A DNA stretch of 64,000 nt from Deltaproteobacteria bacterium (GTDB lineage Bacteria; Desulfobacterota; Binatia; UBA9968). Each line of letters starts with the position of its first letter. The stretch's first letter is position 1. The stretch covers positions 62,501 through 126,500 of the forward strand of contig VGTH01000002.1 in assembly GCA_016874755.1 (NCBI GenBank), given 5' to 3'. The notes under the pieces were generated by a model that saw only the letters and a list, made by a program, of their open reading frames with translations, was not told where the DNA came from and did not search any database. Shown one piece after another: positions 16,360 to 19,296 of this stretch. The position numbers were made by a program, and so were the translations under genes.

Positions 16360-16515
16360 ATGCTGACAATTGCGCTGATCGTAGTCGCTTACGTTACACT
16401 GATTTTTGCGCCCGCCACAGCCCGCGCTGCTGCCGCTCCGGAAAACGTCAAAGTCTCCTACGCCGTGTTGAGCATGGCCTATATGGACCATGTGCTCGCC
16501 ATGGACAAAGGCTAT
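16360..16515 (+). pseudogene. Truncated NMT1/TauA-like substrate-binding protein (N-terminus only)
   Basis: From ATG 16360 the frame gives a signal peptide (MLTIALIVVAYVTLIFAPAT, then ARAAAA) and the start of a mature binding protein, VKVSYAVLSMAYMDHVLAMD plus KGYF. This matches the start of the NMT1/THI5-like proteins seen elsewhere in the window. Similarity stops abruptly near 16515, where palindromic repeat DNA begins, and the rest of the usual 300 residues is gone. It is a remnant, probably left by deletion or repeat insertion. Confidence 0.75.
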
Positions 16516-16547
16516 TTTCGCTTTCGACTTCCTCGTTCTCTGAAGAC

Positions 16548-16636
16548 TGTGTCACAATGGAGAAAATCAGCGGTCTTGTCATCCTGCAGAATGACAATTG
16601 CGACACAATCTCCTCTGGGAGAGGATTGAGGTGAGG
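16548..16636. repeat. Nested palindromic element plus GGGAGAGG repeat
   Basis: Outer arms TGTGTCACAAT (16548-16558) and ATTGCGACACA (16597-16607) match with one mismatch. Inside them TTGTCAT (16576-16582) pairs with ATGACAA (16591-16597). Directly after comes CCTCTGGGAGAGG with TTGAGGTGAGGG, a second family also found at 19327-19356. The element sits exactly where the binding-protein remnant loses homology. Confidence 0.55.
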
Positions 16637-16721
16637 GGGCGCACGGTGGCACGATCTGCGACACTTCGAACCGGCCCTCACCCCGGTCGAAGGACTCCGA
16701 AAACGTTTGAGGAAATATTTC

Positions 16722-17996
16722 ATGCGTCTAGAACTCGGCGAAGTCACCGTCAAAGATGTACGGTTCGGTCCACGCACGGCGCTTGAAGACGGCGTGCTGA
16801 CGATCGATCGCGCCGAGCTGATCGCGCTGCTGCAACAGGAATCGCTCTTTGAGAAGGTCGCAGTCGACCTCGCCCACCCCGGTGAGTCTTGTCGCATCAT
16901 TCGCGTGCTTGATGTTCTCCAGCCGCGCTATCGGCTCAACGGCCCCAACTTCCCCGGGGCTCTCGACGGCGTCGGCCTGGTCGGCGACGGTCACACGCGC
17001 GTGCTCAAGAACGTCGCCGTCGTCGAAATCAGCCAGTCGGAAACCCACGACCGCGACATCATCGACATGAGCGGCCCGGCCGCCGAGCTCACGCCCCTTG
17101 GGAAAACCCACAACGTTGCCTTCACGCCCACAGCGAAAGCCAACGCCGACAAGGATGCCTACCGCTTGGCCATCAAGAAAGCCGGTTTGAAAGCCGCCAC
17201 TTATCTAGCAGAAGCGGCAAAACAAGTGGCGCCTGGCGAGACGCAGGTCTACGAATTACCGCCGGTGGCCTGCAATCAAGGTCCCAAAGAGCTACCGCGC
17301 ATCGCTTATATATTTCCAATCCATTCGCACCAGCATCCAACGCAGCAGAGCGAAACGGTTTTCTACGGCAGCAACATTCAAGGCTTCATGCCGACGATTG
17401 TCCATCCCAACGAGATACTCGATGGCGCTCTGATGTTCTCCTATTCGGCTTTCACCTGGTTCGCGCAAAACCATCCGGTGATTTTGGAACTCTACCGCCG
17501 CCACGGCCAAGACCTCTGGTTCGCCGGCGTGGTCGCTACCCTCGCGCCGAAGACGATCGCGGAGAAGGAAAGATATGCCTATCTCAACGCCCGGCTGGCC
17601 AAGGAAACCCTCGGCGCCGACGGCATCTTAGCGACCAAGATCGGCGGCGGCGCCGTGGACACAGATCTAATGTTGACCTACACCCGCGCCGAAGAAATGG
17701 GCATGAAGGCGACGCTGATCATCATGGAACGCTATCCGGACACGGGCATCACTTTTGTGCCGGAGAATGTCAACGCACTGGTAACGCCCGGCTTAACCCG
17801 CGATCCGATCGATCTTCCCGCGGTCGCGCGCGTCATCGGCGGCGAGACGATCCCGCTGGACAATTCCAATCCGGACAACACCAACCCCGATGTGCCTTTG
17901 ATACCGGCGACGCAAGCCATGCGCGTTTCGCATGGCGACATCGTCGGCGCGATCAGCCAGGTGGGCGGCTCGCGCTTGACCACCTACATGGGTTGA
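16722..17996 (+). CDS. Glycine/sarcosine/betaine reductase component B, GrdE-like proprotein
   Basis: In glycine reductase, GrdE is made as a proprotein that cleaves itself at a Cys, forming a pyruvoyl group used with selenoprotein GrdB to activate glycine or betaine. The 424-residue product opens MRLELGEVTVKDVRFG as GrdE does and carries the probable processing cysteine Cys184 in ELPPVACNQGP, followed by LPRIAYIFPIHSHQHPTQQS. The last 200 residues (LGADGILATKIGGGAVDTD, GDIVGAISQVGG) match the family. ATG at 16722 has TTGAGGA upstream; a TTG at 16707 is the longer option. No GrdA, GrdC or GrdD is in the window. Confidence 0.85.
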   Translation: MRLELGEVTVKDVRFGPRTALEDGVLTIDRAELIALLQQESLFEKVAVDLAHPGESCRIIRVLDVLQPRYRLNGPNFPGALDGVGLVGDGHTRVLKNVAVVEISQSETHDRDIIDMSGPAAELTPLGKTHNVAFTPTAKANADKDAYRLAIKKAGLKAATYLAEAAKQVAPGETQVYELPPVACNQGPKELPRIAYIFPIHSHQHPTQQSETVFYGSNIQGFMPTIVHPNEILDGALMFSYSAFTWFAQNHPVILELYRRHGQDLWFAGVVATLAPKTIAEKERYAYLNARLAKETLGADGILATKIGGGAVDTDLMLTYTRAEEMGMKATLIIMERYPDTGITFVPENVNALVTPGLTRDPIDLPAVARVIGGETIPLDNSNPDNTNPDVPLIPATQAMRVSHGDIVGAISQVGGSRLTTYMG

Positions 17997-18006
17997 GGAA
18001 AAACTT

Positions 18007-19296
18007 ATGAGCGAGAAAGTTCGCGTCATCCATTATTTGAATCAGTTCTTCGCCCAGATCGGCGGCGAAGACAAAGCCGATGTAGCGCCTGGAGCAAAAG
18101 ACGGTCCGTTCGGCCCCGGTCTCGCGCTCCAAAAGGCCCTCGGCGAGAATGCTGAAGTCGTCGCGACAATTCTCTGCGGCGACAATTACTTTGCCGAGCA
18201 TGAAGCTCAGGCCATCGAAACACTGTGCGGCCACATCGCCCAGCGCAACGCCGACCTGCTGGTCGCCGGCCCGGCCTTCGAAAGCGGCCGCTACGGCGTT
18301 GCCTGCGGCGCCATTTGCCAAGCGGCGCAGGAGCGCCTCGGCATTCAAGTGGTTGCCGGCATGGACCGGGAAAATGCCGGCGCCGATCTTTATCGCAAGA
18401 GCATCTACATCGTCGACTCCGGTGCATCCATCGCCAAGACCGCCGCGGTGCTGCAACAGATGGCGGCACTCGGGCTCAAGCTCGTGCGCCACGAAACCAT
18501 CGGCAGGCCGAATCTCGAAGGCTATCTCTCGCGCGGCGTCAAGCGCAACGAAATCGCCGCCAAGCCGCCGGCCGAGCGCGCCGTCGACATGCTGCTCGCC
18601 AAGCTCCGCGGCGCGCCGTTCCAGTCGGAGATCGCCGCGCCGAAGTTCGCCGCCAACAAACCGGCGGCGCCGTTGCGCGATCTCAAGGCCGCGACAATTG
18701 CCCTGGTAACGGACGGCGGATTGGTGATTGAAGGCAACCCAGAAAAAATCGAACCGGGCCGGCCAACGCGCTACACCAGCATTCCCATCCAAGGCGTCGA
18801 GTCGCTCGCCGCCGACCGTTACGATGCGGTGCATTCTGGCTACGACACGGCGCTGGCCAATCAAGATCCGAATCGCCTGGTGCCCCTCGATACCCTGCGC
18901 GAGCTGGAACGTGAGCATGCGATTGCCAAAGTGCATGAATTCATCCACAGCACCGGCGGCGCCCATGCCGCCGTCGAGAACGCGACGATCATCGGCCAAA
19001 GCATCGCCGAAAAATTGCAGGCCGCCGGCGTCACCGGCGTGATCCTCACCTCGACGTGAGGATCGAGCACTCGCTGCGGCGCAGCGATCAGCAAAGAAAT
19101 CGAAAAGCTCGGCATCCCAGTGACGCAAATCTGCACCATGATTCCAGTCGCCAAAGAAGTCGGCTCGCTCCGCGCCATCGCCGCGGGCGGCATCGTCAGC
19201 CCGACGGGCAATGCGGATCTGGCGCCGGAAAAAGAAAAAGAGTATCGCCGCGAGCTAGTCATGCGCGCGCTAAAAACTTTGCAAGAAGAGGTCTAA
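18007..19296 (+). CDS. Glycine/sarcosine/betaine reductase component B, GrdB-like selenoprotein
   Basis: This is the catalytic selenoprotein partner of the upstream gene. The conventional frame stops at TGA 19057-19059 (350 residues), but the same frame continues 79 codons to TAA at 19294-19296 with clear family sequence: VILTST-U-GSSTRCGAAISKEI, then KLGIPVTQICTMIPVAKEVG and SPTGNADL. GrdB selenoproteins have Sec at exactly this place (TSTUGTCTRCG). Sec would be residue 351 of 429. A stem-loop right after the TGA supports recoding. N-terminal landmarks GPFGPGLALQKALG and ILCGDNYFAE also fit. GAGGA lies before the ATG, 10 nt after the GrdE-like gene. The genome must carry selA, selB and selC for this to work; they are not in the window. 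Confidence 0.9.
19057..19087 (+). promoter_or_regulatory. Bacterial SECIS element (UGA plus hairpin)
   Basis: After the in-frame TGA (19057-19059) and 11 nt, TCGCTGC (19071-19077) pairs perfectly with GCAGCGA (19081-19087) around a GGC loop. The 18 nt from UGA to a small loop beginning with G fits the published bacterial SECIS description (short apical loop, early G, about 16-37 nt from the UGA). SelB is expected to bind it. Confidence 0.75.

Follow-up and report, generated by a model that had tools for sequence, protein, structure and literature searches.

An in-frame UGA very probably encodes selenocysteine in an atypical GrdB-family subunit of an uncultured Binatia bacterium

In the 64,000-nucleotide stretch of DNA analysed here (the window), an open reading frame on the forward strand (18007–19059) starts at ATG 18007 and stops at an in-frame TGA directly after residue 350. 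Beyond this codon the same frame remains open for 78 sense codons until it reaches a TAA, raising the questions whether the TGA ends the protein or encodes selenocysteine (Sec), and what kind of enzyme the longer product would be. A first-pass annotation of the DNA had proposed a GrdB-like selenoprotein hidden behind the TGA. Re-reading of the letters confirms the interruption after residue 350, the motifs TST-U-GSSTRCGAAISKEI and KLGIPVTQIC in the continued frame, and the TAA as the C-terminal stop. The family does continue past the TGA as claimed; the count of 79 codons given for the continuation includes the stop. Full read-through yields a product of 429 residues with Sec at residue 351. 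The features are listed in Table 1.

Table 1. Features of the protein B locus in the window
Feature	Position	Strand	Basis or remark
GrdE/GrdG-like subunit (protein B, alpha)	16707..17996	+	PF09338 E=5.5e-93; 429 aa from TTG
GrdB-family selenoprotein	18007..19296	+	one reading frame through TGA 19057
Sec-encoding UGA (very probable)	19057..19059	+	motif UGSSTRCG (UxxSxxC)
bSECIS hairpin	19071..19087	+	7-bp stem, GGC apical loop; published criteria and covariation
True stop codon TAA	19294..19296	+	frame reading

A strong homologue is present in 28 of the 35 genomes of the order, and the matches that extend across the site carry exactly one TGA, with the exception of one copy in genome G003. All 42 loci that were read have TGA at the homologous position, and in none of them was Cys seen in place of Sec. 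Sister homologues that stop at this position would, as the first-pass annotation pointed out, argue against read-through; instead they run on past the same TGA. Comparison with four orthologues gives a pN/pS of 0.16–0.20 for the 78 codons after the TGA, indicating purifying selection, and a higher value, 0.27–0.30, for 199 codons upstream of it. The exceptional copy (G003:C128; L089:10150-11430, in a genome that is 67% complete) was suspected of being a Cys homologue. This was rejected, as a short deletion takes out the UGA and shifts the frame while the SECIS hairpin is kept; the copy is either a pseudogene or an assembly error.

A perfect 7-bp hairpin with a GGC loop, located by the first-pass annotation 11 nt past the TGA, is exactly as described: nucleotides 19071–19077 pair with 19081–19087, and the loop (19078–19080) lies 18 nt from the TGA. 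In the homologous loci, 42 of which were read, a 7-bp hairpin with a GGC or GGT loop likewise follows the TGA. Published criteria for a bacterial SECIS call for a loop of 3–9 nt with G in the first two positions, a stem of 4–16 bp, a distance of 16–37 nt from the UGA and an MFE of −7.5 or lower (PMC13188914), and all 42 sequences satisfy them. Fold energy was also tried as proof of a SECIS and dropped: the DNA is GC-rich, and the difference from shuffled sequences is not significant (z −0.4 and −0.8). We therefore relied on covariation. Across the stem, 98.4% of cells are paired and both sides are changed in 12 cells; the covariation score is 0.200, compared with 0.087 in shuffles, and was reached by none of 500 shuffles, for a set of sequences that are related and hence not independent. 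Most informative is the pairing between base one of the Sec+6 codon and the third, degenerate position of the Ala codon at Sec+8. These two codons are complementary at all 42 loci (AGC/GCT at 29, TGC/GCA at 12 and GGC/GCC at one), and the third bases A and T are rare, with GCA and GCT making up 9% and 8% of the Ala codons elsewhere in the same genes. Three versions of the pair occur among the six paralogues of the window genome alone.

The genome also contains the machinery for Sec insertion. All four genes whose presence the first-pass annotation had proposed to check were found: selC, as a tRNA-Sec with anticodon TCA (75.9 bits against a gathering threshold of 47), selA (600 bits), selB (411 bits) and selD (382 bits), the three protein genes lying in one cluster (G000:C16 6375-10684, G000 being the window genome). 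Based on the conserved TGA, the purifying selection downstream of it, the covarying hairpin and the complete sel set, UGA 19057 is almost certainly a Sec codon in a GrdB-family subunit, and the product a selenoprotein. A lesion is possible in any single genome, but the notion that translation really ends at the TGA, or that the TGA reflects a pseudogene or sequencing error, with a functional product of 350 residues, is contradicted by these same four observations, the TGA recurring in many genomes on independent contigs, and is highly improbable.

Correcting such a gene model is in itself routine, the protein being a further member of a catalogued family. Uncultured lineages rich in selenoproteins are not new either: PMC13188914 cites a MAG of Methylomirabilota that carries 63 selenoprotein genes. 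Several other frames carry a TGA. The selD gene (G000:C16:6375-7301, L066) has one in frame, and SelD of this genome is probably itself a selenoprotein. In other families of the class (L037, L038 and further matches), shorter relatives with one in-frame TGA align to the C-terminal half only and are PrdB-like by length. Four further TGA-interrupted frames in the window, which are mechanical candidates, were not recognized as belonging to any selenoprotein family.

What kind of protein B is encoded? The read-through protein matches PF07355 over its full length (E=1.4e-128, 429.5 bits against a cut-off of 22) and TIGR01918 at 455 bits (cut-off 65), placing it in the GrdB superfamily. It falls below the cut-off of each named subfamily: sarcosine reductase GrdF (NF040794), the best-scoring one, at 484 bits against 800; betaine reductase GrdH at 422.6 against 775; glycine reductase GrdB (TIGR01917) at 404 against 602; and D-proline reductase PrdB at 77 against 300, with 429 residues versus about 240 in PrdB. 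The window protein does not match the GrdB motif of PMC9751293, and the published GrdF motif is absent from it. At Sec, the motif reads UxxSxxC instead of UxxCxxC; the first Cys is gone and the Cys at Sec+6 is kept. As controls we used genomes of the same phylum that bear GrdD. Their GrdB proteins all match the GrdB motif and have UxxCxxC (3/3), and the one that was scored (L103) passes the glycine cut-off with 617 bits. In the phylogenetic tree, the window clade (five genomes, support 100/100) is sister to a clade of 17 with UxxSxxS (96/85). The two together are separated from canonical GrdB, where long branches make the placement unsure. No sequence relative of either the window subunit or its GrdE-like partner was found in the copy of the PDB that was searched.

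The partner, encoded upstream, probably starts at ATG 16722. Its gene is kept beside the B gene in four other genomes (G001, G004, G005 and G014). Like the B subunit, it finds its best named match in the sarcosine enzyme, scoring 243 bits against GrdG (NF040793; cut-off 780) and 230.5 bits against FarE of fluoroacetate reductase (cut-off 675). Canonical GrdE of the same-phylum controls contains SGNCVSACDK with both cysteines in all three cases, which we take to be the pyruvoyl-forming cysteines. At these two columns, none of the 27 E proteins of the lineage has Cys.

Glycine reductase is described as an enzyme of anaerobes that makes acetyl phosphate; within protein C, phosphate transfer is the task of GrdD. 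The window genome contains six B genes, seven E genes, one GrdA gene and one GrdC gene. GrdA carries the Sec motif CFVU; its gene adjoins that of GrdC on contig C39, and the B and E genes are located elsewhere. GrdD scored above the cut-off in none of 58 lineage genomes; the best scores, 28 bits or less, are of the kind that PlsX gives and occur in the control genomes too. Five genomes from elsewhere in the phylum gave 493–530 bits in the same search. Acetate kinase was not found in the window genome (99.55% complete) or in G001 and G004 of the same genus. It is present in some relatives with GrdA and GrdC, so that its loss is not strictly tied to the Grd system. In lineage GrdC, the conserved Cys, His and HN of FCA(G/A)P, TQGHI and ELHN, respectively, are retained. 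A C-terminal tail of about 35 residues is absent from six of six lineage GrdC proteins and present in four of four from GrdD-bearing genomes, suggesting that the tail serves GrdD. The B, E, A and C parts thus persist in genomes that lack GrdD, and the window genome, which also lacks acetate kinase, has a COX1 oxidase gene. In the literature searched, we found no description of a Grd system without GrdD, nor of one that also has pyruvoyl-less partners. In one relative, G012 (L084, L085, L087), GrdB-like genes number about 20 and GrdE-like genes 24, several of them in B-E arrays with solute-binding-type genes; this large genome (8.3 Mb) has 9% contamination and may mix two strains.

These data bear on whether the locus encodes a conventional protein B of glycine or sarcosine reductase, that is, a standard GrdB or GrdF selenoprotein whose reaction yields acetyl phosphate. 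The window protein resembles GrdB in length, PF07355 membership, Sec position and possession of a GrdE-type partner, its genome contains GrdA and GrdC, and its highest NCBIfam score is to GrdF. However, it lies below the glycine, sarcosine and betaine cut-offs, and it fails both the glycine cut-off and the GrdB motif that same-phylum GrdB passes. It further differs in its UxxSxxC motif, in a partner without pyruvoyl cysteines and in the absence of GrdD and acetate kinase. An ordinary GrdB or GrdF is accordingly improbable, and the window gene is not an ordinary GrdB, a point missed by the first-pass annotation.

A dehalogenating protein B like that of fluoroacetate reductase is somewhat less improbable, yet still unlikely. 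In FarE, as in GrdI, the pyruvoyl-forming cysteines are missing, and the CxxC residues are absent from FarB (PMC10838667). The window pair shares the pyruvoyl-Cys-less partner, has lost a protective Cys near Sec (the first of UxxCxxC), and belongs to a genome with several B genes per A and C, a layout of many B to one A/C that the same study describes. On the other hand, the partner scores far under the FarE cut-off, and other E paralogues score 101–190 bits against FarE, so the match is family-wide. The window protein retains the Sec+6 Cys, and no farA- or farC-type neighbours or other far operon partners were seen. A third comparison is with betaine reductase: GrdI is not a pyruvoyl proprotein (PMC10838667), as appears to hold for the window partner, although the B subunit is well short of the GrdH cut-off.

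We lean towards a different reading, drawn from the sequences, in which the gene encodes a protein B that is specific for its substrate and belongs to a Grd-type reductase not coupled to acetyl phosphate. SelA, SelB, SelC and SelD would decode UGA 19057 as Sec with the hairpin acting as the bacterial SECIS, and the product would combine with the GrdE-like protein to form protein B. In known Grd chemistry, the Sec of protein B attacks the substrate and the group passes to the Sec of GrdA and then to GrdC (PMC10298544, PMC13188914, PMC10838667). By extension, the selenolate may attack the alpha carbon of a 2-substituted carboxylate and expel the substituent, giving a carboxymethyl-type selenoether. 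The single shared GrdA would take this over, and GrdC, a protein of the thiolase fold, would receive it next as an acyl group. Since the partner has no cysteines to form a pyruvoyl group, glycine and other amines that would bind as a Schiff base are unlikely substrates; by analogy with GrdI and FarE, the enzyme more probably acts on a quaternary amine or on a halogenated or otherwise 2-substituted acid. A Grd-like system without its ATP-forming parts also points to reduction of a substrate other than glycine. With neither GrdD nor acetate kinase, an ending in acetyl phosphate and ATP is unlikely; instead of leaving as acetyl phosphate, the acyl group probably passes to CoA or is hydrolysed.

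For the lineage as a whole, we offer a more tentative proposal. In these uncultured, probably oxygen-respiring bacteria, the Grd system may have become a group of Sec-dependent enzymes that reduce non-amine 2-substituted acids, with many pyruvoyl-free E-B pairs per GrdA-GrdC and transfer of the acyl group to CoA or water, bypassing GrdD and acetyl phosphate. If true, this would represent selenium-dependent reduction of C-X bonds in a little-studied group, and the role of GrdD would become testable.

The surroundings of the gene were considered as a clue to the substrate and set aside as weak. Around its orthologues only E and B are conserved; the other neighbours vary and are mostly solute-binding proteins, which are common in the lineage. 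In G001 and G004, the orthologues have a solute-binding gene of the SBP_bac_6 type nearby, and G003 has a similar one, judged by eye. In the window, a short frame at 16360–16629 has a signal-peptide-like start and, by eye, a beginning like that of a solute-binding protein; it is perhaps a remnant of such a gene. A macro-domain protein adjoins grdC-grdA in four genomes, namely G000 (L062:11236-11856), G001 (L081:12402-12959), G014 (L082:10403-10993) and G005 (L083:2805-3359), identified by PF01661 in the first and by sequence similarity, by eye, in the other three.
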